The notes under the pieces: generated by a model
What the model was told of the DNA's origin: nothing
The model's input: the letters and a program-made list of their open reading frames with translations, nothing else
Databases searched by the model: none
Shown here: positions 1-39,814 of the stretch, piece after piece
How positions within the stretch are numbered: the stretch's first letter is position 1
Layout of the letters: every line of letters starts with the position of its first letter
NCBI GenBank assembly: GCA_025916675.1
Contig: CP098402.1
Coordinates: 1,359,205-1,423,204 of the forward strand
DNA from: Phycisphaera sp.
GTDB taxonomy: Bacteria; Planctomycetota; Phycisphaerae; Phycisphaerales; UBA1924
Length of the DNA stretch: 64,000 nt
Reading direction: 5' to 3'
Made by a program: the position numbers and the translations under genes

Positions 1-888
1 CGCGCTGTAGGCGAACTGGTTGACCACGCCGCCGGTGTCGAGGGTGGCCAGCCACACGAACCCCGCGATGGAGGCCGCGGCCAGCTCGAAGATCATGCCC
101 GCCGCGCCGACGGACATCCGCTGCCACTTGCTGGCGAAGGCCCAGGTGCTCGACGCGTCGACAAATGGTGCCGGGAACATGACGAGCATCATGATGCCGA
201 GTTCGGGCACTTGGCCGCCGAATCGCTTGCACACCAGGCCGTGGCCGCTCTCGTGGATGATCTTGCTAATCACGAACACGACCATGAGCCAGGGCCAGTT
301 GGCCGGGGCGATGGCGCCCTGGAAGCGGGTCGAGTCGAACAGCGCACCCGCCTCGCTCGCCAGGGCGAGCAGGGCGCTGAACAGCAGCACGCACCAGGCG
401 ATGAAGCCCCAGCGGTTGAGCAGCGGCCGCACGATGGGCTCGAGGGCCGTGAAGATCGAATCCGGATTGAACAGCCGGATGCGGAAGTACATGATGCCCA
501 TGGCCTGGCCGATGGCCTTCTTCTTCACGCGCTCGCGGCCGCGGCGCAGGAGCTGGTCGGTCTCGGGCGTGTCGTCGGCCTTCAGCAGGTTGGCGTTGTA
601 GAGCTGGCTGATGAGCTCGACCGTCTCCACCTGCGTCGGCGCCGCGTCGCCGTGGGTTTCCAGGCACAGGTGCCAGGTTTCTTCGACCGTGCGCTTGCCG
701 TCGAGCAGGCACACGAACTCGTAGGCCATGGGCGTGAGGCGGTAGAACTGGTTGCTGGCCGGGTCGTGCACCACGTGCCATCGCCGGCCGCGGTAGTGCT
801 GGCGGGTGATCTGCGTGTGCGAGCGCAGGCGCGGCTTCATCGCACGCACGCGGCTCCACATCGGGCTGAAGGTCGGGCGTTCGCTCAT
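1..888 (-). CDS. M50-family membrane metalloprotease, C-terminus cut by window edge
   Basis: This is the first 296 residues of a polytopic membrane protein that is still open at the window edge. The N-terminal ~100 residues form a small PqqD-like domain (FYRLTPMAYEFVCLLDG, then a helical stretch). Hydrophobic segments follow, with the zinc-binding HEXXH motif as HESGH at residues 212-216, typical of site-2-type M50 proteases. It is a paralogue of the 739-residue protein at 32715-34934, which has the same PqqD-like start and HELGH at 222-226. It is the third gene of a minus-strand set, 13 bases after a HlyD-like gene. Family knowledge: M50 proteins cleave within membranes, and some sit in export clusters. 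Its substrate here is unknown. The ATG at 888 gives the expected N-terminus. Confidence 0.8.
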   Translation of the reverse strand, partial: MSERPTFSPMWSRVRAMKPRLRSHTQITRQHYRGRRWHVVHDPASNQFYRLTPMAYEFVCLLDGKRTVEETWHLCLETHGDAAPTQVETVELISQLYNANLLKADDTPETDQLLRRGRERVKKKAIGQAMGIMYFRIRLFNPDSIFTALEPIVRPLLNRWGFIAWCVLLFSALLALASEAGALFDSTRFQGAIAPANWPWLMVVFVISKIIHESGHGLVCKRFGGQVPELGIMMLVMFPAPFVDASSTWAFASKWQRMSVGAAGMIFELAAASIAGFVWLATLDTGGVVNQFAYSA

Positions 889-901
889 GTTCGCGGGCCC
901 C

Positions 902-2896
902 CTAGTACCACAGCCACAGGCGGGCGGTATCGAGCAGGCGCCGGCTGAGCACCCAGATGATGCGCTTGTCGCCCGTGTCGATGTACGCGATGCCCTCCAT
1001 GCCCGGGCGCAGCCAGCCAGGCGGGTTGGTCAGCGTGCCGCGGAGCTCGAAGACGTTGCTGCCCTCGTCGGGCTGGCCCAAGGGCACGAGGCTGGTGGCG
1101 TTGAACTCGAACCGCTCGCCGGGTCGGGCTCGGGTCGCGAAGCCGCCGATGCTCTCGGGCGAGACGTAGCCGATGTCGTTGTCCGGAACGCGGGCGATGA
1201 CTTCGAGCTCGTCGAGGTTGGCGATGCGGAACACCGGCTCACCCACGTTGATGGCCGAGCCGATCATGCGCCTGGGGTCGCCCGAGACGATGGTGCCATC
1301 AATGGGCGCGACCATCACGGCGCGTTCGATCTGCACGTCGATGTACCGCAGGCGCGCTTGTTCCTGCTCGAGCCGGCCGAGCGCCTGGTCCGCGGCGTTG
1401 AGGTCGCCCTCCTTGCGGGCCTCGTCGGCTTCTCGCCTGGCCGCGGAAACCGAGGCTTGCGAGTCGATGCGGCTCTCGCGGAGTTCGGTCGTGTCCAGCA
1501 TCATGAGAACGTCGCCCTTGGCCACCTGGACGCCCGGCCTGATGCGCTCGGGCACGCTGGCGATGATGCCCGCGAAGGGCGCCGCCACCGCACGCTCGTG
1601 GACGGCCGACAACTCGGCCTGCGCGTCGATGCGGTAGGGAATCTTGACAAACGTGACAATTAATAGCGTTACGAGCGCGACGAGCGCGGCAACCTTCCAC
1701 GCCGTGTGCCGCGGGCCAACGAGCCAGGTGCCGCTCTTGAGCACGCTGTGCCAGGCGCGCTGGGGGATCGGCCGATCGTCGCTGCGGCGCAGTTCGATGA
1801 CCGGACCCACGAGGTCGAGCGTGGCCTGGAGCAGTTCGAGCTTGGCGGGTTCAAGCTGGTCTTCTTCGGAAAGCTCGATGGTGACCACACCGACGACGCG
1901 CTCACCCGCCCGGATGGGCAGCGAGGCGACCTTGAGGCGGGCGTCCGACGACGCGAGCTGCCGGTGGGCGTGCGTGACGGCTCCCGAGAGCGTGGGATCG
2001 ACCGCGGGCTCCAGATCACTCTCGGGATTTCCGCTGGCAACCTGCGGGATCGGATAGACCACCGCGTGGGCCTGGTCGTAGCACTCTTCCATCGCGGCTT
2101 GCAGCATGCGCACCATGTGCAGGCGGCGGTCGACGTGCTCGGTATCGCTGAGCGCCTGGACGCGGACGACACCCGAGTCGCCGAGTCCCTTGATCCAGCC
2201 GATGGCCGCGCGGTCGGCCGTGGCGGCGCGGGCTAGATCGTTGACAAGCTGGAGGCATGCGCCCTTGAAGCCGCTGGCCTCGTTGATTGACGCGATAAGC
2301 CGGCCGGCCAGGTCGAGTGCGGCCGAGGCCTGCCACGCGCCCTTGGCTTCTTGCCGTGCCGCATGCAGCTTGGCGTAGCCGCAGAGCACCTCGACGAGCG
2401 CCATGGTGGTTTGGGTTGCTTCGCGCGAGCGTTGCTCGATGGTCAGGCAGATGGCGGCCTTGTGCCCGCCGCCCAGCGGCAGGTCGATTGGGCCGGCGAT
2501 GACCGCCCCGCCCTCACTGCCTGCCCCGTACATGGGCGTTTCGGACGCGCTGAGCGCGAACACCCGGGCCTCGCCCTCGCGCGTTGCTTCGGCGGCAGCC
2601 GAGCGCACCCACGAGCCGTGCTCGATCTGGCTTGGGTCGATGCGCCTCGGCTCGCCGGCCTTGCCCGATTGCGGTTCGCCAGCGGTAACGGCGTAGGCAA
2701 TGGACGGCTCTTCGGTGCCCTGCCCCTCGGCGTCGGCGGCCGAAACGATGACCACCGAGCCCTGCCGGGCGTTGGCCACGCGTGTGAGCACGCCGCACAG
2801 GCGGGCGAGGAAGGTGGTTGCGTTGGGCGATTCGGCCGAGAGTTCCTCGACGATGCGCTTCCACGCTGGTGTTCTCAGATTCGAGATATCCGTCAC
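902..2896 (-). CDS. HlyD-type membrane fusion protein with large GAF-like N-terminus
   Basis: Predicted 664-residue inner-membrane adaptor. Residues ~1-395 are soluble and look GAF-like, with two similar halves. One transmembrane helix lies near residues 400-418. A HlyD/lipoyl-like barrel-hairpin region follows (GDVLMMLDTTELRES, then coiled coil, then APIDGTIVSGD). The start chosen is GTG at 2896, preceded by AGGAG at 5 bases; the reading frame stays open for 21 further codons upstream, but these lack a comparable site. The protein ends WLWY. It matches the architecture of the 656-residue protein at 30735-32705. It lies between an adaptor gene and an M50 gene on the same strand, so a joint export or efflux role is inferred. 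A cytoplasmic sensor half fused to an adaptor is unusual for HlyD proteins. Confidence 0.8.
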   Translation of the reverse strand: MTDISNLRTPAWKRIVEELSAESPNATTFLARLCGVLTRVANARQGSVVIVSAADAEGQGTEEPSIAYAVTAGEPQSGKAGEPRRIDPSQIEHGSWVRSAAAEATREGEARVFALSASETPMYGAGSEGGAVIAGPIDLPLGGGHKAAICLTIEQRSREATQTTMALVEVLCGYAKLHAARQEAKGAWQASAALDLAGRLIASINEASGFKGACLQLVNDLARAATADRAAIGWIKGLGDSGVVRVQALSDTEHVDRRLHMVRMLQAAMEECYDQAHAVVYPIPQVASGNPESDLEPAVDPTLSGAVTHAHRQLASSDARLKVASLPIRAGERVVGVVTIELSEEDQLEPAKLELLQATLDLVGPVIELRRSDDRPIPQRAWHSVLKSGTWLVGPRHTAWKVAALVALVTLLIVTFVKIPYRIDAQAELSAVHERAVAAPFAGIIASVPERIRPGVQVAKGDVLMMLDTTELRESRIDSQASVSAARREADEARKEGDLNAADQALGRLEQEQARLRYIDVQIERAVMVAPIDGTIVSGDPRRMIGSAINVGEPVFRIANLDELEVIARVPDNDIGYVSPESIGGFATRARPGERFEFNATSLVPLGQPDEGSNVFELRGTLTNPPGWLRPGMEGIAYIDTGDKRIIWVLSRRLLDTARLWLWY

Positions 2897-2992
2897 GGTC
2901 GCTCCTGTGTGGGGCAACGGGCCAATCGCGTAGCCCGCCGGCTCGCGACGGCCGGGCACGCTCGATTCGTTCTGGTTGGGCCGCCGGGCTGG

Positions 2993-3994
2993 TTAGCCGG
3001 CGTCGGCGGCCAGGGCGGGCTCGCCCTCGTGCTCCCCATCGTTATTGGGTGCCCGCTCGTCATGCTCCGCAAGGATGCGCATGAACGCCTCGGTCGGCTC
3101 GGTAAATCGGACCCACGCGGGCAGGCCCGACAGCAGCCGGTCGGGGTTATCCATCTCGACCTTCACCCAGACCTTGTCCGAGCCAAAGTCGGCCACGGGG
3201 CTCACCTCGGTCACGGTAGCCTCGAAGAGCTTGGGTTGGCCCGCCACGCTGACGGCCACCCACGCCTTGTCGCCGCGCTCCACCCCGGTGCTCAGCACGG
3301 TGCTGGTGGGCGTAGGCACCCGGACCTGGAGGGGGTCGATCGACACCAGACGCACGGCGGGCTCGCTGTCTTGCATGGCTTGGCCCGGCGTGACCTCGAT
3401 GGCCGCCACGGTGCCGTCGAACTGGGCGGTCACCGCGAAACGCTCGAGTTCGGCCTTCTGACGCTCTAACACGATGCCCTGCTCGATGAATCGTTCTTCG
3501 GCCGTGTCGCGTTCGATCTTCGCGTTCTCCAGGGAAGCCTTGGCACGCTCGAACTCCAGGCTGCTCCCGCCGCCCTGCTCTCGGGCCGAATTCTGGTTGT
3601 CGAACTCGATCTGGGCGAGTTTCACACGGTTCTCTGCGGCCAGAATCTCGAAGCGGTTCTTGGCCCGGCGTTGCTGGAGGCGGTAGGCGGCTTGGATATC
3701 GCCGTCGCGGGCCCGCACGAGCACGTCGCCCTTCTTGACGTGGTCGCCCACGTCGACCAGCACCGCACGGACCTCGCTGGGCTGGTTGAAACCCATCAGG
3801 GCATCCTTGCTGGGCTGGGTAAAGTGGTAGATGCCCCCGAACTCGGCCGCCCACGAGGGCTCGTAGGCGTAGCTTCGCGACTGCTCGGTGCCCTGCTGGG
3901 CGTTCGCCGAGGGCAGCAGGGCCGCCCCGGCAATTGCGGGCAGGGCGAGGATCAGGAGGAGGACGCGGGCGGTTTTGTGATTGGCATTGGCCAT
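2993..3994 (-). CDS. Periplasmic adaptor of RND/HlyD efflux type
   Basis: Predicted 333-residue secreted adaptor. An N-terminal signal sequence (LLLILALPAIAGAALLPSANA, cleavage near residue 32) is followed by a lipoyl half-motif (EVRAVLVDVGDHVKKGDVL), a long coiled-coil hairpin (residues ~100-190), the second lipoyl half (FAVTAQFDGTVAAIEVTPGQ) and a beta-barrel region. The ATG at 3994 is chosen because the signal peptide begins there; an in-frame ATG further upstream would add 39 non-signal-like residues. TATACT lies 9 bases before the ATG, so a very short leader is possible. No RND pump or ABC transporter gene is adjacent; the partners are the HlyD and M50 genes downstream. Confidence 0.8.
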   Translation of the reverse strand: MANANHKTARVLLLILALPAIAGAALLPSANAQQGTEQSRSYAYEPSWAAEFGGIYHFTQPSKDALMGFNQPSEVRAVLVDVGDHVKKGDVLVRARDGDIQAAYRLQQRRAKNRFEILAAENRVKLAQIEFDNQNSAREQGGGSSLEFERAKASLENAKIERDTAEERFIEQGIVLERQKAELERFAVTAQFDGTVAAIEVTPGQAMQDSEPAVRLVSIDPLQVRVPTPTSTVLSTGVERGDKAWVAVSVAGQPKLFEATVTEVSPVADFGSDKVWVKVEMDNPDRLLSGLPAWVRFTEPTEAFMRILAEHDERAPNNDGEHEGEPALAADAG

Positions 3995-4148
3995 GGTGAC
4001 CCAGTATACGGGTCGTGCGTAGGTCTTTGTTCCCCTGTTCATGCCAAATCGGAGCCGATAGCATGCCTCGGTGGTAGAAACCCTACCATTTTCCTGCCGG
4101 ATCTGGCTCACGTGTCAAGGGGCCGCGCGTGTAAAGGAGGACACTCCA

Positions 4149-24837: not shown

Positions 24838-27800
24838 TTAGCAGCCGGCGTCGAACTCGTTCTGGAAGGCCAGGAAGTCGAACAGGGTCAGGCTGCCATC
24901 GCCGTCGAAGTCGGCCAGCAGGTCGCCCGAGTCGAAGGCGTTCTGGAAGGCCAGGAAGTCGAACAGCGTCAGCACGCCATCACCATCAAGATCGGCCCGG
25001 CAGCCGGTGCCACCCAGGATGGCGTCGATCGCGTCCAGGTCGTCCTGGTTGACGATCAGGTCGCCCGTCACGTCGGCCGAGAGATCGAAGAGGACCGCCT
25101 CGGAGATGTCGTCCCAGTTGGCCTCGCCGTCATCGACGGCAGAGATCTGGGCGGCGATGTAGGCCCGGTCGAAGGCATCGACGATGCCGTCGGCACCGGC
25201 GCTCGGGCTCCAGCCTGGGGTGGTCAGGCCATCGATGTTCGAGACATCAAAGCGTGACCAGCCGGCTTCGTACGAGATCGAACCATCGCCGATCATGGTG
25301 TTGAAGAAGTTGCCGGTGGTCGACGCAACGTCGACCATCTCGAAGCCGGCGACGCGGTCGAGCATGCCGGTGCCGGTGTCCAGAGCCAGGCCGTCGGCGA
25401 AGTAGCGGGCGTCCTCGGCATCGAAGTTGCCATCACCGTTGAAGTCGCCGATGATCTCGAGCACGGCGTCGCTGCCGGGCTCAAAGGAGGCGCGATCTTC
25501 CAGGGCACCGATCATGGCGGCGGTGTCGCCGATGTTGCGCACGCCGTCGTTGTTGAAATCGCCGGCCAGGCTGTTGCGATCTGTTACTCGATCGCCGTAG
25601 AAGACCGTGTTCCCGGCCTGATCGACGTAGTTGCCGCCACCGGCCACGCCATCGCTGTAGGTGACGCCCGTGGTGCGGGTGGGGACGAGGCCGGTGGTGA
25701 AGCCCGAGCCGCCAAAGGTCGCGAAGCGCGGGTCGCCCAGGACGATGCTGTTGGCACGGATGAAGTCCTGGAGGCTCTGGTTAAAGTCGGGGTTGGCGAT
25801 CTGGTTCAACGGGTCGAGGGTGTCCTGGATGAAGTCCGTCGCCGCGATCAGCGTGAAGTTGCGGGCCAGGAACTCGGCGGGCGTGAACTCGACCTCGGGG
25901 ACGCTGGGGTCGTCCTCGAATGCCGAGATGCTCGCCGTGATGTTGTTGAGGTACGCCGCGGCCTGCTCGTTCTCCATCGGGGGCAAGCCGGTGCCGTTCT
26001 GACCACCCACCGAAGGGCTCACCGCGCGGGGGCTTCCGATCGACGTGAATGTCTCGGGACCACCGATGGTCCAGCCATCGGCGTTGTTGTCCAGCACGTT
26101 ATCGATCGTCGGACGGCTGAAGGCCGTGCCGCCCTGGAGGTCGTTGCGGACGGCCAGCACGTCGGCGCGGCCGTTGAAGAACCACCGGCTGGCACGCTCG
26201 GCACCGGTGTGGCCGATCGCCAGGCGGTGGTTGATGACCGTCGAATCAAGCGAGCCGGATCCGCCCTTGTTGCCGGGCAGGAAGTCGGGACCGAGCAGGT
26301 TGAACTCGGCGCGGTTGTTGCGCTCGCCAACGTTCTCGCCGCGGCCCCAGCTGGGGTCCAGGCCGATCGAGTTCTGGAAGCCGTTGCGGGTGCCCGAGCC
26401 GGAATCGCGGGTGACGAAGACCAGGTTCTCGCCATTGCTGCGGCGGCCGGTGGCGTTGCCGTAACGCAGGTCGCTCTGGTCGATCTGCTCGAGGCCGACG
26501 CCGTAGTTGACGATCGGAGCGATCGGCACGAAGGCGATGGGCGTATCGAAGATGGTGTCGCTGGCGGTCACGGCCGGGGGGTTGGCCGGGTCGAAGAGCT
26601 TCAGGCCGCCAAGATCGGCCAGGCTGTTGCCCTGCGAGATAATGTTACCGTCCTTGTCGCGAGCGAGGATGCCCGAATCGCCGTAGCCAACCGTGCCGGG
26701 GTTGGCGTCGAGCGCGCCCGTGCCCGAGATGGTCACGGCCCAGCTGGCGGGCACGTCGAGGACGCCCAGGTCGATCCGCACGCCGCCGATAGCCGACGTG
26801 CTGGGGAACGTGAACGGGCTGGCACGGAAGGTGCCGTCGGTCAGCGAGCGGAAGGGGCTGCCGCCGGGGTTGCCGGCATTGAAGACGCCCGCCACCGGGC
26901 CGCTCACCTCGTCGATGTAGACCTCGCGGTTGGCGAAGGCGTTTTCGGCAACGCTTCCCTCAAGACCGATCGCGGGGTTGTCGTCGTCGCGTGTGGTGTC
27001 GTAGAAGCCCGTCGCCGCGAACGGGCCATCGGGGTCGTTGGTTAGCACGAACTCGCGGAAGCCTTGCACCGAGCCCGTCGAACGATCGGTCACGATCCAG
27101 TGGGCGTCGGCGTCGTAGGTGGACTTGCGCTGGCCGCCGGGGGCGAGCTGGTCGATGCCCGGGCCGATGCGACGGGCAAAGCCGTCCAGGTCGGGATCAA
27201 GGTAGTCGTTGGTCGAGGCGGGGGCCTCAAAGAAGCTCGCGAACAGCGTGGCGCCCGAGATGTTGATCAGGAAGGGGCCCTGGAGGGCCGTGTCGGCCGG
27301 CGTGGTGCCGGGGCTGCCAACGCTCGTGTCCGGGCCAGCGCCGGCGGGTGCGCTCACGTAGCCGCCGTCGACACCATCTGTGCTCAGGGCCCAGTTCGTG
27401 CCGACGTTGCCGTCGACGAAGGGGTTGCCGAGGTAGATCGAGGCGACACCGTCATCGGCGGGCCAATCGCCGCCGTCGTCGTAGGTGATCGCGACGACTG
27501 CGGCGCCGAAGTCACGGCCGGCGTGGCTGGTGATGCTGTCCCACAGGCCGAACGTGTCGCCGCCGTTATTGAGGGCCTGCCAGTCGTCCACGGCAATGAA
27601 GTTGATGCCCGTGCCCCAAGCGGCCTCGACCGTGGCCAGCGTGAGTGCGCTGTTGTACAGCACGGCGGTACCACCGGCGGGGATCATGCCGCCGGGGATG
27701 TTCGCGGCCGTGATCGGTGCTCCGCCCTCGTCATCGAGGACCCAACCGGTCAGGTCGATGGCCGATCCGCCGGTGTTCATGATCTCGACATACTCCCACT

Positions 27801-27930
27801 CGTTGTTCGAATCGAACGCGGGGTTGTACATAATCTCGGTGACAGCGATGCTCTGGGCGCTGGCGCTCGCCGCCACGCCCGCCAGGCCGCAGGCGGCCAG
27901 CAAGGTCGAAATCCGGTTGCTCGTCTTCAT
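24838..27930 (-). CDS. Secreted lamin-tail-domain protein with GC-type dockerin tail
   Basis: Predicted 1030-residue secreted protein. A signal peptide (STLLAACGLAGVAASASAQS) is followed at residues ~27-130 by a lamin-tail domain (IAVTEIMYNPAFDSNNEWEYVEI, LTGWVLDDE). A long beta-rich region has several DG/DN turns. Near residues ~810-870 is a classic dockerin-like pair (GDFNNDGVRNIGDTAAMI and GDFNGDGNFDAEDARYF). The C-terminus carries two copies of the DGDG.LTLFDFLAFQN.FD unit, the second ending in GC at the very terminus. The start at 27930 is set by the signal peptide; GGAG lies 9 bases before it. It lies 189 bases downstream of a prepilin-like gene on the same strand. Role is unknown, presumably cell-surface or extracellular. 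Confidence 0.87.
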   Translation of the reverse strand: MKTSNRISTLLAACGLAGVAASASAQSIAVTEIMYNPAFDSNNEWEYVEIMNTGGSAIDLTGWVLDDEGGAPITAANIPGGMIPAGGTAVLYNSALTLATVEAAWGTGINFIAVDDWQALNNGGDTFGLWDSITSHAGRDFGAAVVAITYDDGGDWPADDGVASIYLGNPFVDGNVGTNWALSTDGVDGGYVSAPAGAGPDTSVGSPGTTPADTALQGPFLINISGATLFASFFEAPASTNDYLDPDLDGFARRIGPGIDQLAPGGQRKSTYDADAHWIVTDRSTGSVQGFREFVLTNDPDGPFAATGFYDTTRDDDNPAIGLEGSVAENAFANREVYIDEVSGPVAGVFNAGNPGGSPFRSLTDGTFRASPFTFPSTSAIGGVRIDLGVLDVPASWAVTISGTGALDANPGTVGYGDSGILARDKDGNIISQGNSLADLGGLKLFDPANPPAVTASDTIFDTPIAFVPIAPIVNYGVGLEQIDQSDLRYGNATGRRSNGENLVFVTRDSGSGTRNGFQNSIGLDPSWGRGENVGERNNRAEFNLLGPDFLPGNKGGSGSLDSTVINHRLAIGHTGAERASRWFFNGRADVLAVRNDLQGGTAFSRPTIDNVLDNNADGWTIGGPETFTSIGSPRAVSPSVGGQNGTGLPPMENEQAAAYLNNITASISAFEDDPSVPEVEFTPAEFLARNFTLIAATDFIQDTLDPLNQIANPDFNQSLQDFIRANSIVLGDPRFATFGGSGFTTGLVPTRTTGVTYSDGVAGGGNYVDQAGNTVFYGDRVTDRNSLAGDFNNDGVRNIGDTAAMIGALEDRASFEPGSDAVLEIIGDFNGDGNFDAEDARYFADGLALDTGTGMLDRVAGFEMVDVASTTGNFFNTMIGDGSISYEAGWSRFDVSNIDGLTTPGWSPSAGADGIVDAFDRAYIAAQISAVDDGEANWDDISEAVLFDLSADVTGDLIVNQDDLDAIDAILGGTGCRADLDGDGVLTLFDFLAFQNAFDSGDLLADFDGDGSLTLFDFLAFQNEFDAGC

Positions 27931-28086
27931 GGGAACTTTCTCCGCAAGTGTTCGGGAAGCGTGCTTGCTCGTGGTCCTGCCGGTCGGCACCAACCGCCCG
28001 GCGTCCTCTCTCACGGGGGGATGGACCTCGTCTCCCCCTGCGCCCGCGTGTGGCGGGACGTATTCTGTTGTGGGCCAGCAATGCGA

Positions 28087-28110
28087 ACGGCCGCGGTTTC
28101 CCGCGGCCGT
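28087..28110 (-). promoter_or_regulatory. Strong GC hairpin between two minus-strand genes
   Basis: A 10-bp perfect inverted repeat (ACGGCCGCGG / CCGCGGCCGT) with a 4-base loop starts 10 bases after the prepilin-like stop. There is no U-tract on the minus strand, so it may be an mRNA-stability or partial-termination hairpin between this gene and the lamin-tail gene rather than a simple terminator. Confidence 0.5.
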
Positions 28111-28119
28111 GGCAGTCAT

Positions 28120-30316: not shown

Positions 30317-30658
30317 ATGGCCGAGAATCAACAACAGCAGGTCCAGCTCCGCATCGACGAGAGCAAGATGCAGACCACCTACGCCAACACCATCCGCAGC
30401 AGCACCACCCAGGACGAGGTCGTGCTGGACTTCGGCATGAACCTGCCCATGCAGGGCAACGACGGCAAGCCCGTGCTCAACTTCAGCGTCGGCAGCCGCA
30501 TCGTGACCAACTGGGCCGGTGCCAAGCGCCTGGCGATCTCGATGGGCCAGATGGTCCGCCAGTACGAGGAGCGCAACGGCGAGATCGAGATCCAGCGTGG
30601 CCAGCAGGCTCCCCAGCCCGGTGCCGAGGGCGGCGATGGCCCCCGCCTGAGCGAGTAA
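30317..30658 (+). CDS. DUF3467 family protein
   Basis: Predicted 113-residue soluble protein. The core YANTIRSSTTQDEVVLDFGM and SRIVTNWAGAKRLAISMGQMVRQYEERNG match the DUF3467 family, whose function is not known. It has a glutamine-rich start and an acidic C-terminus. GAAAGGAAA precedes the ATG at 30317. It sits 76 bases upstream of the HlyD/M50/SecA-like genes on the same strand, so it may be a small cytoplasmic partner of that export-like cluster; this is inference from position only. Confidence 0.82.
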   Translation: MAENQQQQVQLRIDESKMQTTYANTIRSSTTQDEVVLDFGMNLPMQGNDGKPVLNFSVGSRIVTNWAGAKRLAISMGQMVRQYEERNGEIEIQRGQQAPQPGAEGGDGPRLSE

Positions 30659-30734
30659 GCGGGGCGAACCCCGTTCCCCTTATGAGCGGCCCCCGACCCA
30701 TTGGTGATGGGGGCCCCGGAGGCCCGGCGACCGC

Positions 30735-32705
30735 ATGAGCGCCTCAACGTCCGCTTCATCCAACCCGTCACTGCCCGGCAGATCTTCTCCCGGTGGCACA
30801 CCCGCCGCCCAGGGCGCCGGGTCGGGTGCGCCCAGCGCGCAGCAGGCCCTGGGTGAGTACCTCCAGGGCTTGCTCGAACGGCTGTGCGCGCTGTCGCGTG
30901 CTCAGGCTGGGTTGGCGTTCATCCGCCCCGGTCAGCAGCGTGCGGGCGGGCTCGCGGCGCTGCATGCCCCCGGTGGTGAACAACTCGCCGAGCAACTGCG
31001 TGCAGACGCGCAATTGTTGTCGCGGTTGTCGACACTTGCGGATCGCGCTGCGGCGCAGGCCGAGCAGAACGGCGTGATGGGGACCATCAGCGAGAGCGTG
31101 ACACTGGGCGGCGGAGCGCTCTACCACGCGCAGGCCACGCATCGGGCGACCGCCGTGCCGCTCGTCGCGCTGGGGCAGGCCGAGGGCGCGTGCGTGGTGC
31201 TTACGCCGATGGGCGAGAAGGGCACCGAGCTGACCGAGCGGTCGCTGCTCGTCGCCGCCGAGGGCTTCGAGGGATTTCTCTGGAGCCAGCGGGCGATGGC
31301 CGAGGCCGAGCGCACGGCCCGGCTGCGCGAGACTCTTGAGATGCTCGACGCCGCCCAGCGCGGCGCGTCAGCGTCGTCAATGGCCAGCCTCTTCTGCGAT
31401 GAACTCCGCCGACGGTTCGGCTGTTCGCGTGTCTCGGTCGGACTGGTCCAAGGCCACGACATCAAGGCCGTCGCGATCAGCGGTGCCGATATCATCGATC
31501 GCCGCAATCCGGCTGTTGAAGCGCTCGAAGCGGCCATGGAGGAGTGTGCCGATCAGGATATCGAGGTGGTGTTCCCTCAGAGCGAGGAGTTGGCACCGGC
31601 CGAGCGTCGTGTCGTCCGGGCGCATGGCGAGTTGTCGCGGAGCTTCGGGCCGTCGAGCATCGTGAGCCTGCCGCTACGTGTGGATGGTGATCTTGTCGGG
31701 GTCGCCGTGCTTGAGCGCGATGCCGACGATCCGTTCCCGGCTGGTTCGCTGGGTTTGTTGCGATTGGTCGCCGAGTTCATCGGGCCGGCGGTGTGGACGC
31801 GGCGGCTGGCCGACCGGGGCATCCTGGCCGTCTCGCGGGATCGGGTGCTCGACTTCGGTTCGGCCATCGTCGGTCCGCGGCACACGCTACTGAAGCTCGT
31901 GGGTGTGCTTGCGCTCCTGGTGTTCGTGGCGTTGGCCGCGACGCCGATTCCTGATGTTGTCAGCGCCCAGGCCGAGACCAAACCGGCGGCCCAGCGTGCG
32001 CTGACGCCGCCGTACCAGGGCTATCTGGCGTGGGTGGGCGTGAAGCCCGGCGATGCCGTCACCGCGGGCCAGGTGATCGCACGCATGGACACGACCGAGC
32101 GTGAGGCCCGCCTCACATCGCTCGAAGCGCAGTATGCGGCCAGACGCTCGGAGCGCGAGGCGGAGCTGTCTCGCGGCCGAATGGAGCAGGCCGATGTGCT
32201 GGACTTCCAGCTGGGCGAGTTGGACGCGCAGATCGGTCTGCTGCGATACGAGATCGAGCGTGCGCAGATGCGTGCGCCGATCGATGGCCGTGTGGCGGGT
32301 GCCGATCTCGAGCCGTGGCTCGACGCCTCTGTTGCACCGGACACACCGCTCGTGCGCATCGTGGGCGACCAGAGCGTGATCGTGCTGCGCGTGCCCGAGC
32401 GTGACATCGCGGCGGCCCAGAAGCGTTTGACAAATGAGGATGCCGAGGAAACGGACGGCACGTTCGCGCCGCGGGCCCGTCCCGAGGAACGCCTGCCGTT
32501 GCGATTGGTCCGCGTGAACCCGCAAGCCGAGGCGGTCTCTGGCGGCAATGTATATCTGGTTGAGGCGGAGTTGGTCGGTGAGGAGCCCTCGTGGCTGAAG
32601 CCGGGCATGACCGGCCGGGCCCGCGTGCGCTCGGGCTGGACAACACCGCTGGTTCGTCTTGCTCGACCGCTGATCGACCGGGCCCAGATGGCCTGGTGGT
32701 GGTAG
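30735..32705 (+). CDS. HlyD-type membrane fusion protein with GAF-like N-terminus
   Basis: Predicted 656-residue protein. Residues ~1-30 are Ser/Pro-rich, ~35-370 form a soluble region with two GAF-like segments, a single helix lies near 385-405 (LLKLVGVLALLVFVALAATP), and a HlyD part follows: lipoyl half GYLAWVGVKPGDAVTAGQVI, coiled coil, second half APIDGRVAGADLEP, then barrel. The last residues are AWWW. It is a paralogue of the protein at 902-2896, sharing order, size, the GPRHT motif before the helix and the aromatic C-terminus. The M50-HlyD gene starts 9 bases after its stop, so the two are cotranscribed. The role in export or efflux is inferred. Confidence 0.82.
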   Translation: MSASTSASSNPSLPGRSSPGGTPAAQGAGSGAPSAQQALGEYLQGLLERLCALSRAQAGLAFIRPGQQRAGGLAALHAPGGEQLAEQLRADAQLLSRLSTLADRAAAQAEQNGVMGTISESVTLGGGALYHAQATHRATAVPLVALGQAEGACVVLTPMGEKGTELTERSLLVAAEGFEGFLWSQRAMAEAERTARLRETLEMLDAAQRGASASSMASLFCDELRRRFGCSRVSVGLVQGHDIKAVAISGADIIDRRNPAVEALEAAMEECADQDIEVVFPQSEELAPAERRVVRAHGELSRSFGPSSIVSLPLRVDGDLVGVAVLERDADDPFPAGSLGLLRLVAEFIGPAVWTRRLADRGILAVSRDRVLDFGSAIVGPRHTLLKLVGVLALLVFVALAATPIPDVVSAQAETKPAAQRALTPPYQGYLAWVGVKPGDAVTAGQVIARMDTTEREARLTSLEAQYAARRSEREAELSRGRMEQADVLDFQLGELDAQIGLLRYEIERAQMRAPIDGRVAGADLEPWLDASVAPDTPLVRIVGDQSVIVLRVPERDIAAAQKRLTNEDAEETDGTFAPRARPEERLPLRLVRVNPQAEAVSGGNVYLVEAELVGEEPSWLKPGMTGRARVRSGWTTPLVRLARPLIDRAQMAWWW

Positions 32706-32714
32706 GAGTCCGCG

Positions 32715-34934
32715 ATGGCCCAGCCACCGATCAAGCGGCGCGGCCGCGACATCGCCTCGACCTTCAGCGACATGTGGTATCGCGTCGGGCCGACCACGCC
32801 CAGGCTGAGCGCACACGCCCGCGTGGTGCGGCAGCACTATGGGCCGACGATCGCCTACGTCGTCGAGGATCCCGCGAGCGGGCAGTTCTACCGCATGAGC
32901 GAGAGCGCCCACTTCTTCCTGGGCATGCTCGACGGGCGGACCACGGTCGACCAGGCCTGGGAGGCCTGCAACGACCAGCTCGGCGACGCCGCCCCCACGC
33001 AGCGCGAGGTCATCGACCTGCTCAGCCGGCTGCAGCTCTTTGGCCTCGTGCTGGGTGAGAGCGCGCTCGACGCCGAGATGCTCGAGCAGCGGCTCACCAA
33101 AGCCAAACGCCAGCGCACGCAGAAGCGCACCGGCAAGTGGATGTTCCCGCACGTCCCGATCGTGAATCCCGAGCCATTCCTTCGCCGGCACGAGAAGCTC
33201 TGCCGGGTATTGTTCGGCCGCACGGCCGGCGTGCTCTGGATCATCCTGGTCTCGATCGCGTTGGTCCTGGTCTTTGCCAACGTCCACCGCTTCGGTGACG
33301 AGCTCAACAAGGTCGCCCAGCTCTCGGCCTCGACGATCGCCACGCTCGGCGTGATCTTCCTGGTCTTGCGCGTCGTCCACGAGTTGGGCCACGCGATGGC
33401 GTGTAAAGCGTTCGGCGGCCGGAGTACCGAGATCGGCGTGATCCTGATCGCGTACGTCATGCCGCTGCCCTACTGCGACGCGAGCAGCGCGTGGCGGTTC
33501 GCGAGGGTGTGGCCGCGCGTGTGCGTATCGCTGGCGGGGATACTGGCCGAGACGGTGCTCGCGGCACTCGCGGTGGTCTATTGGGCCTTCGGCAGCGACC
33601 CGGTGTGGACGAGCATCGCCTACCAGGTCATGCTCGTCTCGGGCGTGAGCACGCTGGTGTTCAATCTCAACCCGCTGCTGCGTTATGACGGATACTACAT
33701 CCTGAGCGACCTGACCGGTACGCCTAACCTGGCCCAACGCTCACGCGAGATGCTCAAGTACCTGATCCAGTACTACGCGTATGGCGTCAAGGGCTCGCGC
33801 GGGCCCAGCCTGCGTTCGCTCGGTGAGGGCTGGTTGCTCGCGGTGTATGGGTTACTCGCCACACCCTATCGCGTGTTCATCGCGATCGCGATCCTGCTCA
33901 TTATCGCCAGCAAGTATCTGACGCTGGGCGTCGCGCTCGCGGTAGCGATGGGCGCGATCTGGCTGGTGTATCCGATCTTCAAGACCGCTGGATTCCTGTT
34001 GAGCGACCCGAAGCTGGAGGGGCACCGGGCGCGAGCTCTCAGCGTGACCCTCGCGGCGCTGGCCGTGGTGATCGGGCCCATCATGCTCGCGCCGCTACCC
34101 ACGCCGACGTACGCCGTGGCCACGATCGAGCCCGCGCGCATGGACGGCCTTCGCACGCTCGAGGGCGGCATCCTCGCCGAACTCCTCGTCGATCCCGGTG
34201 ACGCGGTCGAAGAAGGCCAGATCGTCGCGCGGCTCGAAAACCGTGGACTGCAGGCCGAGTTGGAAGCCACACGCGCCCGGCTGGCCCAGGCGCAGACGCA
34301 ATACCGGACTTCGCTCAAGGGTCCGGCGGCCGAGCAGGAAGAGTTCCGCCAGGCGGTGCGCGTCGTGGAAGAACAACTGGCCCGTGCCGAGCGGCGCGTT
34401 GCGAACCTACGCGTGCTGGCCCCAGTCTCCGGCGTGGTCTCGCCACTCAGCGAGCAGACCTCGGCGGACCTCCGATCCCGCATCGGCGCATGGGTGCCGC
34501 GCGGCACGGCCCTGGGCATGGTCGTCAGCGAGGGCGATCTGGTCGTGCGTGCGATGGTGCCCGATCGCGACCATGCGTTCGTATTCCGCGGCCAGGACGA
34601 GAGCGAGATCAACGCGAGGGTGCGGCTGGCCAGCGCGCCCGGCGACGTGATCAAGGCGGGGGTGCTGCGCACCGCCCCGCTGGGATCGAAAGAGCTCACC
34701 AGCCCGTCGCTCGCGTCCCAATCGGGCGGCGGCATCACCACCGATCCACGGACAACGGACCGAGCCATCGCGCTGACACCGAGCTTCGTCGTCGATCTTC
34801 GGCTCGCCAAGTTGACCCCCGGAACAGTTCCCGGCGTGCGGGCGTCGGTGCGGCTCGAAGGCCCGAACCGGCCGCTCGGCGTGCGCTGGTGGCGGCGGGC
34901 GAGCCAGTTCTTCGAGGGGCGAGCGTGGTGGTAG
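32715..34934 (+). CDS. PqqD-like/M50 metalloprotease/HlyD fusion protein
   Basis: Predicted 739-residue membrane protein. Residues ~45-120 form a PqqD-like winged-helix region (FYRMSESAHFFLGMLDGRTT). The M50 core follows, with HELGH at residues 222-226 and the third zinc ligand D325 in NLNPLLRYDGYYIL. After more helices, residues ~470 onward are a HlyD-like periplasmic part (GILAELLVDPGDAVEEGQIV, coiled coil, LAPVSGVVSPLSE). It ends in RAWW. All zinc residues are present, so it should be catalytically competent. The fusion puts a membrane protease and an adaptor in one chain, suggesting proteolysis coupled to export. The SecA-like gene overlaps its 3' end. Confidence 0.85.
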   Translation: MAQPPIKRRGRDIASTFSDMWYRVGPTTPRLSAHARVVRQHYGPTIAYVVEDPASGQFYRMSESAHFFLGMLDGRTTVDQAWEACNDQLGDAAPTQREVIDLLSRLQLFGLVLGESALDAEMLEQRLTKAKRQRTQKRTGKWMFPHVPIVNPEPFLRRHEKLCRVLFGRTAGVLWIILVSIALVLVFANVHRFGDELNKVAQLSASTIATLGVIFLVLRVVHELGHAMACKAFGGRSTEIGVILIAYVMPLPYCDASSAWRFARVWPRVCVSLAGILAETVLAALAVVYWAFGSDPVWTSIAYQVMLVSGVSTLVFNLNPLLRYDGYYILSDLTGTPNLAQRSREMLKYLIQYYAYGVKGSRGPSLRSLGEGWLLAVYGLLATPYRVFIAIAILLIIASKYLTLGVALAVAMGAIWLVYPIFKTAGFLLSDPKLEGHRARALSVTLAALAVVIGPIMLAPLPTPTYAVATIEPARMDGLRTLEGGILAELLVDPGDAVEEGQIVARLENRGLQAELEATRARLAQAQTQYRTSLKGPAAEQEEFRQAVRVVEEQLARAERRVANLRVLAPVSGVVSPLSEQTSADLRSRIGAWVPRGTALGMVVSEGDLVVRAMVPDRDHAFVFRGQDESEINARVRLASAPGDVIKAGVLRTAPLGSKELTSPSLASQSGGGITTDPRTTDRAIALTPSFVVDLRLAKLTPGTVPGVRASVRLEGPNRPLGVRWWRRASQFFEGRAWW

Positions 34935-36982
34935 GTGGCACGCCGAGCGTGACGACGGCACCAGGAGCCGATCGGCTGTGGCCCGCGCTGTCGCGCGAGG
35001 AGCGTCGTGAGGAGCCGCTCGAGGGTGTCGACCGCGTGGCGGCGAACCTCCAGGGACGGGTCATCCGCCGCCGCGTGAGCACGCACGAGCGGGACCTGGC
35101 CGGGGCGATCCTCGATACGGCTCGGGCCTGCCAGGACCTCACCGAAGCGTCCCTTGGCGAGCGGATCGATGCCGTGCGCCAGCACGCCCACCGGATCGCG
35201 CGGCAGGACTCGAAGCTGGACAGCGACGCGCTCCGCGAGGCCTACGCCGTGGGCGTCGAGGCCGTCCGGCGGACGACCGGGCTGACGCTGTACCCCGAGC
35301 AGGTGATGGGCGCGCTCGTGCTCCGCGGTGGGGCCGTCGCCGAGATGGCAACGGGCGAGGGCAAGACGGTGACGGCCATCCTGCCCGCCGCGCTCGCGGG
35401 GTGGACCGGGCGCGGCGTGCATGTCGCCACGGTCAACGATTACCTGGCCAAACGCGACGCGCAGTTGTGCGAGAGCGCGTACGCCCGGCTCGGCTTGCGC
35501 GTTGGCGTGCTGGAAGAGGGCATGAAGAAGGCCGACCGCCGCGCGCAGTACGATCTTGATATTACCTACGGGGCCGACAAGCAGTTCATCTTCGATTTTC
35601 TGCGCGACCGGCTCAGCCAGCCGCTCTCGCCGAGCGTCGCCGGCAGCGTGCTCGACGCCGTGACGCACGAGGACGACCGCCAGGCCTGGACGAACGATGT
35701 TGTCCAGCGCGGCCTGCACGCGGCGATCGTCGACGAGGCCGACAGCGTACTCATCGACGAAGCCGCCACGCCGGCGATCATCGCGCTGCCCGCCGGTGAT
35801 GGCATCGGGGCCGATTCCGCCGAGCGGTACGCGGCGGGCATCGAGCTCGCCCGGGAACTCGAGCCCGATCGCCACTACAAGGCCGACGCCCGCACCCACC
35901 GCGTCAGCCTCACACGCGCGGGGCACGAGAAGCTCGGCGAACTGGCGGCCGACCCCAATCGTAATCTGCCCGCGTTCTGGGCCGGCCCGCGTCGGCGCGA
36001 AGAACTCGTCAGCCAGGCCCTCAGTGCCATCGTGCTGCACCGGCGTGACGACGACTACATCGTGCGACCCAACAAAGAAGGCAAGCGCGAGGTCGTGATC
36101 GTCGACCGCTCGACCGGCCGCGTGCTCGAGGGCCGCCAGTGGCAGCTCGGGCTGCACCAGGCCGTCGAGGTCAAGGAGGGCCTAGACCCGAGCGAGCGCC
36201 GCCACACCGCCGCGCGCGTGAGCTACCAGCGCTACTTCGCGCGGTATAGGTCACTCGCCGGCATGACGGGCACCGGCTGGGAGGTCGCGCCCGAGCTGTG
36301 GCGGACGTACAACCTCCGCGTCGTCCGCGTGCCAACGCACCGCCCGATCGCGAGGGTGGAGCGGGCCGACCGCACGTTCGCCACAGAGGACGAGAAGTTC
36401 GCCGCCGTCGCCAAAGCGACGCGTCGCGCCCACGACAAGTCGCAGCCCGTGCTCGTGGGCTCGCGATCGGTGCACGACTCCGAGCGTCTGGCGGGCCTGC
36501 TCGCCGAACAGGGCCTCGAATGCAAGGTCCTGAACGCCCGGCACGAGGCCGAGGAGGCCGCGATCATCGAGGGCGCGGGGCGGGCCGGGGCGATCACGGT
36601 GGCCACGAGCATGGCCGGCCGCGGCACCGATATCAAGCTCGACGACGACGCGCGCGAGGCGGGCGGCCTGCTCGTCCTCGCCGTCGAACGCAACCACGAG
36701 CGGCGCGTCGACCGCCAGCTCTTCGGCCGCAGCGGCCGCCAGGGGGATGTGGGCGAGGCCGTCGCGTTCGTGTCGCTCGACGACGAGATGGTCGTGCGCT
36801 ACGGCCTGCCGCCCCTGCGCTGGCTCACCCGCGTGAGCCCAGACCCCGTGCGGAGCACCCTCACCCGCCTGCTCGTCCGCCAGGCCCAGCGCGCCGCCAC
36901 GCGCCGCTGGATGCTGATCCGCGAGGAGGCCGGGCGGATCGACGCGTGGGTGGACCTGGCGTTCCATCAGCGCAGCCGGTGA
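34925..36982 (+). CDS. Short SecA-like translocation ATPase
   Basis: Predicted 685-residue SecA homologue, against ~830-950 for housekeeping SecA. Present: Walker A ATGEGKT at residues 142-148 (K147), VATVNDYLAKRDA, ITYGADKQFIFDFLRD, DEAD box at 270-273 (VDEADSVLIDEA), the NBD2 motifs TVATSMAGRGTDIKLD and FGRSGRQGD. After the last motif only ~80 residues remain, so the helical wing and most of the helical scaffold, as well as the zinc-binding tail, are missing. The start is GTG 34925 (or 34928), with GAGGGG 5 bases before it and a 10-base overlap with the M50-HlyD gene, showing tight coupling. It is probably a dedicated accessory motor rather than the housekeeping SecA. Confidence 0.88.
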   Translation: MVVGGTPSVTTAPGADRLWPALSREERREEPLEGVDRVAANLQGRVIRRRVSTHERDLAGAILDTARACQDLTEASLGERIDAVRQHAHRIARQDSKLDSDALREAYAVGVEAVRRTTGLTLYPEQVMGALVLRGGAVAEMATGEGKTVTAILPAALAGWTGRGVHVATVNDYLAKRDAQLCESAYARLGLRVGVLEEGMKKADRRAQYDLDITYGADKQFIFDFLRDRLSQPLSPSVAGSVLDAVTHEDDRQAWTNDVVQRGLHAAIVDEADSVLIDEAATPAIIALPAGDGIGADSAERYAAGIELARELEPDRHYKADARTHRVSLTRAGHEKLGELAADPNRNLPAFWAGPRRREELVSQALSAIVLHRRDDDYIVRPNKEGKREVVIVDRSTGRVLEGRQWQLGLHQAVEVKEGLDPSERRHTAARVSYQRYFARYRSLAGMTGTGWEVAPELWRTYNLRVVRVPTHRPIARVERADRTFATEDEKFAAVAKATRRAHDKSQPVLVGSRSVHDSERLAGLLAEQGLECKVLNARHEAEEAAIIEGAGRAGAITVATSMAGRGTDIKLDDDAREAGGLLVLAVERNHERRVDRQLFGRSGRQGDVGEAVAFVSLDDEMVVRYGLPPLRWLTRVSPDPVRSTLTRLLVRQAQRAATRRWMLIREEAGRIDAWVDLAFHQRSR

Positions 36983-37251: not shown

Positions 37252-38388
37252 CTACGAGTCGAATAGTAACGGGGGAGGCTCGCACTGCCGAATCAGAGCG
37301 TTGTCATTGAGGGTTGTGCGTCCGTCCTTCGAAGCGAGATGCCCAGTTCGCAGCAACTCCTGGATCCGACTGCGAATTTCCTTCCGCAGCAAGTAGCCAA
37401 ACCAGCATTCGATCACATGTTGGATCAGTGTGCCTCGTTCGGTCCATTCTCGTGCACCCGCGAGGATCGTTGCATCAATGTCGGCACCATGTCTTGTCTT
37501 CTCCAGTTGCACAATATCAAATAAGCCAGAATCTCTTGGGTATTCGTTGGCCAAGAATTCTCGACGAGCATTGACTGCCTCGTCATTCATCAGGCTAAGT
37601 GCGGTATCACTGCGTGAGGCAAACACTAAAAAGTACTTGGGAATACGGTGGCTATCAGAGGCGAACACTTTGTAGAACTGTACATGTTTAAACCGGGTTT
37701 CAAGCGTTTTGCGAAAACCAAGGATGGTGTTGTCAACCTGATCTACAAAGCTCACATCTGGTGCCACAAACTCCTGCCACCAATCTCCACCAGCAATGGT
37801 ATTGAGAACGGCTGGGCTCAGCGTTGGTACGGGTGCCGCCTCCTCATCGATCTCTAGAGGCGCTTTAAGTGAGGCCCTAGCGCATCGGCAGAATGCGAAC
37901 GCGTTGAAGTTCAGTAGCAACTCGATGCTGCTGCCGGCCTCAAGTAGCCGAAACACATGGTCCAATGAAGCTAAATCAAGACCCTTCAACGCGAAAGGAT
38001 CAAGAAACAAGAAGACGGAATGCGTTTTGGATGCTTGCAGTATGTCGCCCAAATGCTCTTCGAAGCTGCCGTGCTTTGCCGTGGCGAACGAGAATGGGCC
38101 GAGAGTGTCGCATAGCTGTTTGTGTAAGGATGCATTAGCTTCTATTGCTATGAGTTTAGCACTGAATCGACTTCGTGCGATACATCTCGCGATCAATAAT
38201 GGGGAGCCATCCGAGTTGTCGCTGAACTTGCCTGGGCCGACAAAGCCATCAACAACAAGTATGGGTCTGCCAATCGCTTGCGAGACCTTGGGAAGATAAT
38301 TGGACAGATAGCCTTCGAGGATACGATCTTTCTGCTTTGACCACGATCGCTTAGCGACGAAGAACTGCTCATCTGCTTGATGCGTCAA
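37252..38388 (-). CDS. tcmP: Three-Cys-motif partner protein
   Basis: Predicted 378-residue protein. The N-terminal WSKQKDRILEGYLSNYLPKV and DGFVGPGKFSDNSDGSPLL, and later FLFLDPFALKGLDLASLDHV, match the TcmP family as I know it. These look methyltransferase-like, but no activity is established. TcmP genes are known beside genes for three-Cys-motif (Gp37/Gp68-like) proteins, and exactly such a gene lies 15 bases upstream. Base composition stands out: bases 37621-37680 count to about 42% G+C in a window otherwise clearly GC-rich, with many A/T-ending codons. This suggests recent acquisition. Confidence 0.85.
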   Translation of the reverse strand: MTHQADEQFFVAKRSWSKQKDRILEGYLSNYLPKVSQAIGRPILVVDGFVGPGKFSDNSDGSPLLIARCIARSRFSAKLIAIEANASLHKQLCDTLGPFSFATAKHGSFEEHLGDILQASKTHSVFLFLDPFALKGLDLASLDHVFRLLEAGSSIELLLNFNAFAFCRCARASLKAPLEIDEEAAPVPTLSPAVLNTIAGGDWWQEFVAPDVSFVDQVDNTILGFRKTLETRFKHVQFYKVFASDSHRIPKYFLVFASRSDTALSLMNDEAVNARREFLANEYPRDSGLFDIVQLEKTRHGADIDATILAGAREWTERGTLIQHVIECWFGYLLRKEIRSRIQELLRTGHLASKDGRTTLNDNALIRQCEPPPLLFDS

Positions 38389-38403
38389 TTCATCACCTCC
38401 CGT

Positions 38404-39156
38404 TCACGTAGCCGGCATCCCATCCCACGTCCTCCCTTCCAATTCCCTTCCCGTCTCCTTCTTCCTCACCCCACCCCATTGCTTGAAGAAGAACGGCACG
38501 CGCTTCTCCTCGCACTGGTTCTTGATCTGCAGCGCCCACGAGCCCTGCATGGGGCGGGCACCCGGGCCGCTCTCGCCGCCGACGATGACCCAGTGGATGT
38601 TCTTCAGGGGCATGCGTGCGAGCGGGCCGAGAAGCGGCTCGCACGAGAGGAAGCGGACGTGCGCGGGGGTCTTCTGCAAGAGGCGGATGCGCTCGTAGTA
38701 CCGGGCGCTCTCCACGCTCGTGCCCAGCCAGATGTTCTCCGGCCATGGGAGGCGGGCGGCCAGTTCGAGTGCGCGATGCGGGCGTTTGGTCAAGACCTGG
38801 AAGCTGTGCTGGGGGCACTCGGCCATCACTCGGAACACGCGCGCGACGAACGCCTCGGGCACGGCCTCGTGGAACAGGTCGCTCATGGAGTTGACGAAGA
38901 TCGTGCGGCCGAGCTTCCACGAGCGCGGCAGGTCGAGGGCGCCCTCGTCCAGGTTCACCCGGCCGGTGAAGACGGGGCGGCCATCCCTCGCCTTGCCCGC
39001 CGTGCCGACATATTTGCCGGTGCCCTTCTGCATCTTTTCCAACCGCAATGCCATGCGGGCGGCATAGCAATTGAGGCACCCCGGGCTGACCGGCGTACAC
39101 CCGGCGATGGGGTTCCACGTCGCGCTCGTCCACTCGATGGTCGATCCCTGGGCCAT
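38404..39156 (-). CDS. Three-Cys-motif Gp37/Gp68-like (DUF5131) protein
   Basis: Predicted 250-residue protein of the phage Gp37/Gp68 family. The three-cysteine motif is [13 protein letters not shown] near residues 19-31, after [48 protein letters not shown] and [12 protein letters not shown] are family-typical and suggest a radical-SAM-like barrel. ATG 39156 is chosen over an upstream ATG because GGGAGGG lies 8 bases before it. The pair with tcmP is known from phages and genomes; its function is not established. Confidence 0.88.
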
Positions 39157-39814
39157 GTCCGTTCCCTCCCTTTTGACGCTCGGCACGCATCCATGCGGCT
39201 ATACGAACATACGCCTATCGGCCTGAGGCTGTTTCGCGCTTGACACGGATTGCTGCGATCACGATCCCCAGCAGATCCTCATCGACGAGAACGTGGGGCG
39301 GATCTGCGGGCGACGCGAGCGCATCCATCGGTTCCGGCAAACTCCCAACCTGCCACGGCGAGTTCCTTCCTTGCCACCGTGAACTCCTCACATGCCACCG
39401 TGAACTCCTCACCTGCCACGGCGGGCTCCTTCCTTGCCATCGTGGGGAACCTCGGATCTCCCCTCACGGGCTTTGAGTGGCGTTTTTTTGCCTCTCGGAC
39501 CCATCTCGCCGTGCCACCAAGAGAGAAACTTTGCGGATCATTCGGATTGGGCTGGATCGCCGGCCCGATGCGTCCGATGCCAGGGGTGTGCCGGGCCACT
39601 CGGGCCCGGGAAGACTCGAACCGTGGCCCGCCGCTGGCGTCGTTCGCTTCGCTGCCCGCCGCACGGAGGCTTGCGTGATGCAGGTCCTTCTTCTGAAGCC
39701 GTCGGCGGCTCGGCGCGTTCTGCCCGCCAAACGTACTTTGACCAAGGCCCGGAATACCTTCCGCGCCGCGCCCGCGGCGCATGGCCCCGCTGGCGAAGCG
39801 ACAGGACAACGCTC
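39157..39814. other. Gene-free stretch with tandem repeat
   Basis: About 660 bases with no gene I can support. It contains five 21-bp tandem repeats (39351-39455) and, on the minus strand near 39606-39620, a tRNA T-arm-like GGTTCGAGTC without the rest of a tRNA. Long open frames here on both strands have no family features. Confidence 0.45.
39351..39455. repeat. Five 21-bp tandem repeats
   Basis: Five consecutive units begin with TGCCA(C/T)(G/C)G at 39351, 39372, 39393, 39414 and 39435. Units 2 and 3 differ at one base; units 1 and 4 resemble each other. The period is a multiple of three, so in any open frame it would give seven-residue repeats, but no credible gene contains it. There are no spacers, so it is not CRISPR. 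Confidence 0.8.

Follow-up and report, generated by a model that had tools for sequence, protein, structure and literature searches.

The window analysed here is a 64,000-nt stretch of the genome of Phycisphaera sp. (G000:C1:1359205-1423204), which is assembled as a single contig of 3.6 Mb. Within it lie four consecutive plus-strand genes, whose products were assigned as follows.

30317..30658, plus strand: first gene, DUF3467 protein of 113 aa (PF11950, 60.8 bits; cut-off 25)
30735..32705, plus strand: GAF–HlyD protein with a cytoplasmic GAF domain, one membrane span and a periplasmic adaptor part (Pfam matches)
32715..34934, plus strand: PqqD–M50 protease–HlyD protein of 739 aa (Pfam matches)
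34925..36982, plus strand: SecA-like ATPase consisting of NBD1, PPXD and NBD2 only (Pfam matches), with a GTG start at 34925 or 34928

Gaps of 76 and 9 bases separate the first three genes, and the last two overlap by 10 bases if the SecA-like protein starts at the GTG at 34925. The gene 3' of the SecA-like ATPase sits on the opposite strand; thus, the unit appears to end at 36982. A first-pass annotation of this DNA had described the four genes with this spacing and with these identities, and all of it is borne out by the coordinates and Pfam matches. Three features were absent from that annotation: the PqqD domain of the M50 protein, a second copy of the module and the missing C-terminal parts of the SecA-like protein.

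For comparison, a scan with an alignment of M50 proteins (A2) yielded 80 loci from many phyla; the closest named loci belong to Phycisphaerae and other Planctomycetota. The M50 protein joins a PqqD domain (residues 48–111; PF05402, 29.5 bits, cut-off 23.4) to an M50 protease domain (residues 213–309; 29.0 bits) and an HlyD_3 domain (residues 567–627; 30.3 bits). The protease had been called zinc-competent, and its active-site motifs are indeed intact (HExxH as HELGH, and the second motif as NLNPLLRYD). Both motifs, HExxH and NxNxLxRxD, are found in 79/80 homologs, and intramembrane cleavage by the protein is possible. The PqqD domain was detected at E ≤ 0.01 in 9 of the 15 aligned homologs. 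In the AlphaFold model (pLDDT 80.9), the HlyD half matches adaptors of the MexA/AcrA type. The protein scores below the cut-offs of two curated protease families: 158.9 bits with the daptide HExxH protease NF041824 (cut-off 300) and 45.9 bits with YydH/LiaK NF058609 (cut-off 225). The GAF–HlyD protein matches PF01590 (GAF, 36.1 bits) and PF13437 (HlyD_3, 31.6 bits), and its score with RND_mfp TIGR01730 (74.1 bits) is under the cut-off of 94.9. DUF3467 is a recurrent accessory of the module: its gene lies upstream of the GAF–HlyD gene in 19/80 loci, a lower bound obtained with one query sequence, and is also present in the clusters of genomes G107 and G121. Its predicted fold is β-β-β-α (model pLDDT 83.3). 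A SecB-like chaperone role was considered for DUF3467 but finds no backing in the model, which has no confident PDB match and is most similar to COMM domains (VIA Z 5.7), followed by PC4/Pur-alpha-like proteins.

The fourth protein (P0004) matches SecA_DEAD (279 bits), P-loop_SecA (165.8 bits) and SecA_PP_bind (82.6 bits), and the Pfam scan gave no match to SecA_SW. It aligns to residues 57–579 of Bacillus subtilis SecA only and then ends, a range that in SecA structures covers NBD1, the preprotein cross-linking domain (PPXD) and NBD2. Absent are the helical scaffold, wing and two-helix finger, almost in their entirety. The protein thus retains the regions with which SecA grips a chain but not those working on SecY. 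The ATPase motifs are present (Walker A GEGKT, DEAD and GRGTD), and GEGKT, DE[AV]D and GRGTD are each kept in 60–65 of 66 SecA-like proteins. With canonical SecA TIGR00963 it scores 524.6 bits, below the cut-off of 800, and it is also under the accessory SecA2 cut-offs of TIGR03714 (440.9 vs 930), TIGR04221 (388.8 vs 725) and NF012136 (346 vs 1100). The genome encodes three SecA_DEAD proteins: the housekeeping SecA, the operon's protein and one just before the window start. Pairwise identity of the operon's protein is 41% to this paralog and 37% to the housekeeping SecA. The housekeeping protein (L007:5572-9657, minus strand) is itself unusually long, with 1361 aa and large insertions, in line with the SecA_SW rearrangements reported for planctomycetes (Kamneva et al., 2015; PMC4452313).

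The paralog belongs to a second, divergent copy of the module, lying some 26 kb upstream, inverted relative to the operon and partly inside the window, whose M50 protein is about 34% identical to that of the operon.

902..2959 (L006:14107-15996), minus strand: GAF–HlyD protein of the second copy
1..888, minus strand: N-terminal part of the PqqD–M50–HlyD protein of the second copy, the rest being outside the window (whole gene, L006:11913-14093)
L006:9876-11909, outside the window, minus strand: SecA-like gene of the second copy
2993..4111, minus strand: additional gene for an HlyD adaptor, immediately upstream of this copy (PF16576, 42.4 bits)

No DUF3467 gene was seen beside this copy. Elsewhere in the window, the minus-strand gene at 24838-28119 encodes a lamin-tail-domain protein with a dockerin-like end and, by eye, an ordinary Sec signal peptide; with this apparent signal it contrasts with the LEPR proteins that the genome encodes (see below). 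The interval 37252-39186, also on the minus strand, holds the gene for a DUF5131 protein (318 bits) next to that of a 378-aa protein without a Pfam match, which by eye resembles a three-Cys-motif partner protein.

The order of the module is conserved far beyond chance. A GAF–HlyD gene precedes the M50 gene in 77/80 loci and a SecA-like gene follows it in 70/80. This order is kept over Planctomycetota, Pseudomonadota, Desulfobacterota, Nitrospirota, Verrucomicrobiota and Omnitrophota. In 6 of the 10 loci without a SecA-like gene, the contig breaks off no more than 0.5 kb from the M50 gene; at least three others that are not cut short (L070, L115 and L132) have none nearby, and the SecA-like gene is thus not always co-encoded with the module. 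No ABC transporter was found at the window locus, nor by ABC motifs in the flanks of the 80 loci. About nine sites in the genome match the TolC family (PF02321), none of them in the operon.

The first-pass annotation knew of no described system with this composition, which is incorrect. Modules of GAF/HlyD, M50/HlyD and SecA_DEAD proteins were described in Planctomycetes, Verrucomicrobia, Proteobacteria and others, with no ABC transporter at the locus; their broader role was called completely unknown, with the SecA-like protein put forward as the ATPase and the M50 protein as the pore (Kamneva et al., 2015; PMC4452313). The module described here is the same in its co-located GAF–HlyD, M50–HlyD and SecA_DEAD proteins, the last without SecA_SW. 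It differs in the addition of DUF3467, PqqD, a link to cargo and a wider range of phyla; DUF3467, PqqD, LEPR and giant proteins are all absent from the main text of the earlier paper. The gene core is thus already published, and the cargo link and its tag are new, as are the PqqD domain of the M50 protein, the recurrence of DUF3467 and the end of the SecA-like protein after NBD2.

LEPR-XLL proteins are giant and secreted-looking, which was the basis for choosing their N-terminal domain (NF012209) as a guess at the cargo. The model is short, with just 24 positions and a cut-off of 17 bits, and it had no match at E ≤ 0.001 in 14 control genomes. LEPR proteins occur in 43/48 genomes behind the loci (in five of which the motif had already been seen beforehand), with open frames of up to 18,012 aa. 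Within the phylum of the window, 8/149 genomes encode them, and all eight are among the 31 with an M50–HlyD homolog (Fisher p = 1.6e-6, optimistic as the genomes are related). Counted by taxonomic family, 6/6 families with LEPR have M50–HlyD (p = 1.2e-4, likewise optimistic owing to kinship). The search gave no match in the remaining 23 of the 31 genomes, and the set of 31 includes M50–HlyD proteins without an adjacent SecA-like gene; among these 23, G048, G069, G105 and G137 have no SecA-like gene beside the M50 gene. Many of the genomes compared are drafts. A motif model of our own (A4) had matches at E ≤ 1e-3 in 15 genomes, each of which belongs to the 31, and lends support rather than an independent test, having been trained partly on those genomes. 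PF07595 (Planc_extracel) looks like a planctomycete variant of LEPR, with LExR-x-L/V-L/M-AAD in G121, G081 and G048. It was tried as a phylum-wide cargo marker and set aside as too short (9/149 genomes at E ≤ 0.01; 2 over the cut-off, both with an M50–HlyD homolog). An exceptional expansion, with 32 LEPR-XLL matches, was seen in the genome of the L105 locus (G196), an uncultured planctomycete.

The same association is found in the alphaproteobacterial family of Tropicibacter sp. R16_0 (G163), represented by 149 genomes, 21 of which encode LEPR proteins; the expectation that an M50 search would match nearly the same genomes was recorded before that search. LEPR is present in 16/16 strict module genomes vs 5/133 others (p = 1.7e-17, optimistic owing to kinship), the strict set being the genomes whose M50 protein scores 480 bits or more, a line chosen after the scores had been seen. 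With all M50 matches at E ≤ 1e-20, the table becomes 18/8/3/120 (p = 2.5e-14). The next-lower class of M50 proteins (G248, G259, G288 and G294) has neither a SecA-like gene nor LEPR, and this second M50–HlyD class apparently belongs to another system. Five alphaproteobacterial genomes encode LEPR without the module and without a second SecA, with strong LEPR matches in G285 and G324. G226 has no SecA at all, and its genome is thus probably incomplete.

LEPR giants also often adjoin the module. The flanks of the 80 loci hold giant open reading frames rich in D, N, T, S and G, and several of those whose N-terminus lies in the flank carry the motif. For instance, the N-terminal motifs of the flanking giants at L081 (EAMEPRILLAADP), L109 (QELEPRVLYSADG), L115 (EAMESRILLSAND) and L132 (EALEPRLLFSATAD) are all over the NF012209 cut-off. 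In the Tropicibacter family, 14/17 LEPR giants on the same contig (6,400–17,800 aa) end 1.8–3.0 kb from the M50 gene, a distance that leaves room for the GAF–HlyD gene, and 13 of these are on the same strand as the M50 gene. At 19 named loci, the coordinates agree with a giant beside the M50 gene, the shared contig being taken from those coordinates. The planctomycete G107 carries a 5819-aa LEPR giant inside the cluster, where it separates the SecA-like gene from the other genes. RTX repeats were found in 3/3 neighboring giants scanned.

Among 59 collected N-termini, a basic stretch precedes the motif (median net charge of +5 in 40 residues), and the consensus of the tag is [LFV]-E-x-L-E-P-R-x-L-L-S-A-D, in which E, L and R are conserved by construction, being in the search pattern, and S-A-D lies outside that pattern. 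The mean hydropathy over 11 residues stays below 2.0 in all 59 leaders. Three of the four Escherichia coli signal peptides used as yardsticks reach this value (for example, PhoA with 2.5 and OmpA with 2.6), and MalE, with 1.92, does not. The hydropathy of the leaders thus speaks against a classical signal peptide and makes even a weak Sec signal less likely.

The proposal that follows starts from direct observations: the content and order of the genes, the conservation of the active-site motifs, a SecA that is cut short, an HlyD half folded like an adaptor, and the association of the module with LEPR giants across genomes. From these, the operon probably encodes a type I-like exporter of LEPR-tagged proteins that is powered by the SecA-like protein and has no ABC transporter, and the LEPR-tagged proteins are quite likely the cargo of the module. 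The several hundred genomes compared point to a cargo of very large proteins located at the cell surface or outside the cell. At its N-terminus the cargo would carry a basic leader of some 20–80 residues ending in [LF]E-x-LEPR-x-LLSAD, and this leader would be recognized by the PqqD domain of the M50–HlyD protein, by DUF3467 or by the SecA-like protein. The membrane-embedded M50 protein would provide the point of entry at the inner membrane and might also cleave the leader; the SecA-like ATPase would grip and push the chain. The two HlyD halves, together with a TolC-type channel encoded elsewhere, would then conduct the chain out, with the GAF part regulating the process. Each biochemical step, the cargo role of the LEPR proteins and the direction of movement are what we infer from genes and genomes. 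The chances seem evenly balanced for the broader claim of a distinct secretion system that is spread over six or more phyla. In this system, a truncated SecA-like motor devoid of the parts acting on SecYEG and a PqqD–M50–HlyD protein would replace the ABC transporter, and giant proteins (frames of up to about 18,000 aa) would be exported via a non-Sec N-terminal LEPR-XLL leader.

In the genome of the window, four LEPR-type proteins are the candidate cargo.

L184: 1911-aa subtilase with P-domain, PPC and Big_5
L185: 889-aa cyclophilin-domain protein
L186: 851-aa protein with a weak matrixin match below the cut-off
L187: 3278-aa protein without a Pfam match

Two NF012209 matches in this genome are over the cut-off of 17 (G000:C1:423043, 24.0 bits; 333321, 23.9 bits), and two further motif proteins were found by model A4 (E = 1.3e-4 and 3.2e-3). 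The motif of L187 rests on E = 0.003, and the protein has counterparts of similar length in both congeners. No LEPR gene was found near either module in this genome; thus, the link there rests on co-occurrence and the tag.

The first-pass annotation had proposed a possible export or signal-processing machine linking SecA-like ATP use, intramembrane cleavage and adaptor passage, and had noted that SecA pushes proteins through SecYEG. A dedicated exporter is upheld by the order kept across phyla and by a tagged candidate cargo that tracks the module and often adjoins it, whereas a role for SecYEG is doubtful because the elements with which SecA works on the SecY channel are missing from the SecA-like protein. 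An accessory Sec route, in which the SecA-like protein delivers cargo, LEPR-tagged or other, to SecYEG like mycobacterial SecA2 and the HlyD and M50 proteins process the cargo or carry it onward, is accordingly unlikely. Known SecA2 proteins do work with SecYEG, and NBD1, PPXD and NBD2 are well kept, as the SecA_DEAD score of 279 bits and the 41% and 37% identities attest; yet the protein stops after NBD2 without scaffold, wing or two-helix finger, the leaders have no hydrophobic core, and the curated SecA2 models are far under their cut-offs (440.9 vs 930). Likewise, site-2 proteases commonly act in signaling, and with an M50 site intact in 79 of the 80 homologs and a GAF domain at hand, the module might be imagined as a device for regulated membrane proteolysis, with GAF as the sensor, M50 cutting a membrane-bound regulator and the SecA-like protein as accessory motor. 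Neither two fused periplasmic adaptor parts nor so close a link to a single class of tagged giants would be expected of such a device, and we regard it as very unlikely. The least probable reading, for which we see hardly any chance, is the maturation or export of small RiPP-like peptides in the manner of the daptide or epipeptide metalloproteases. The PqqD domain and the matches to NF041824 and NF058609 point that way, but both scores are below the curated cut-offs, the candidate cargo consists of giant proteins and not short precursors, and no RiPP-modifying enzyme was among the recurrent neighbors examined. Export of LEPR-tagged proteins is favored because it joins all the parts.

As an exporter of this kind, the module would share several features with known systems. 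Like type I secretion (HlyB–HlyD–TolC), it has HlyD/MexA-type adaptors and a large candidate cargo, with RTX repeats in the three neighboring giants scanned, and TolC-family genes elsewhere in the genome might supply a channel, although its loci have no ABC transporter and its M50 protease is fused to an adaptor. Classical type I cargo carries a C-terminal signal, whereas an N-terminal tag, the LEPR-XLL domain NF012209, is proposed for the cargo of the module. NBD1, PPXD, NBD2 and the ATPase motifs are common to SecA and accessory SecA2; the module protein differs in lacking the scaffold, wing and two-helix finger, in falling below the model cut-offs and in being co-encoded with adaptors. With the daptide and YydH/LiaK proteases it shares an M50 membrane metalloprotease, and its PqqD–M50 part is similar to NF041824, but it adds an HlyD half, scores below the family cut-offs and has no known short precursor.

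LEPR-XLL was previously a bare annotation on giant proteins, and the link to the module names its likely signal, motor and cargo. A literature search, with subscription papers and preprints outside its range, found no published link of LEPR-XLL to a transporter and no paper tying LEPR-XLL, SecA, HlyD and M50 together. If true, the proposal would explain the export of proteins of 6,000–18,000 residues in many bacteria, perhaps with neither an ABC transporter nor the Sec channel involved, and would give annotators a rule for locating cargo. The link also makes both the module and LEPR-XLL testable. The best natural test case in the phylum is the cluster at G121:C10:3803000-3841950 (L190 and L191), where the whole module is surrounded by at least five proteins with LExR variants of the motif.
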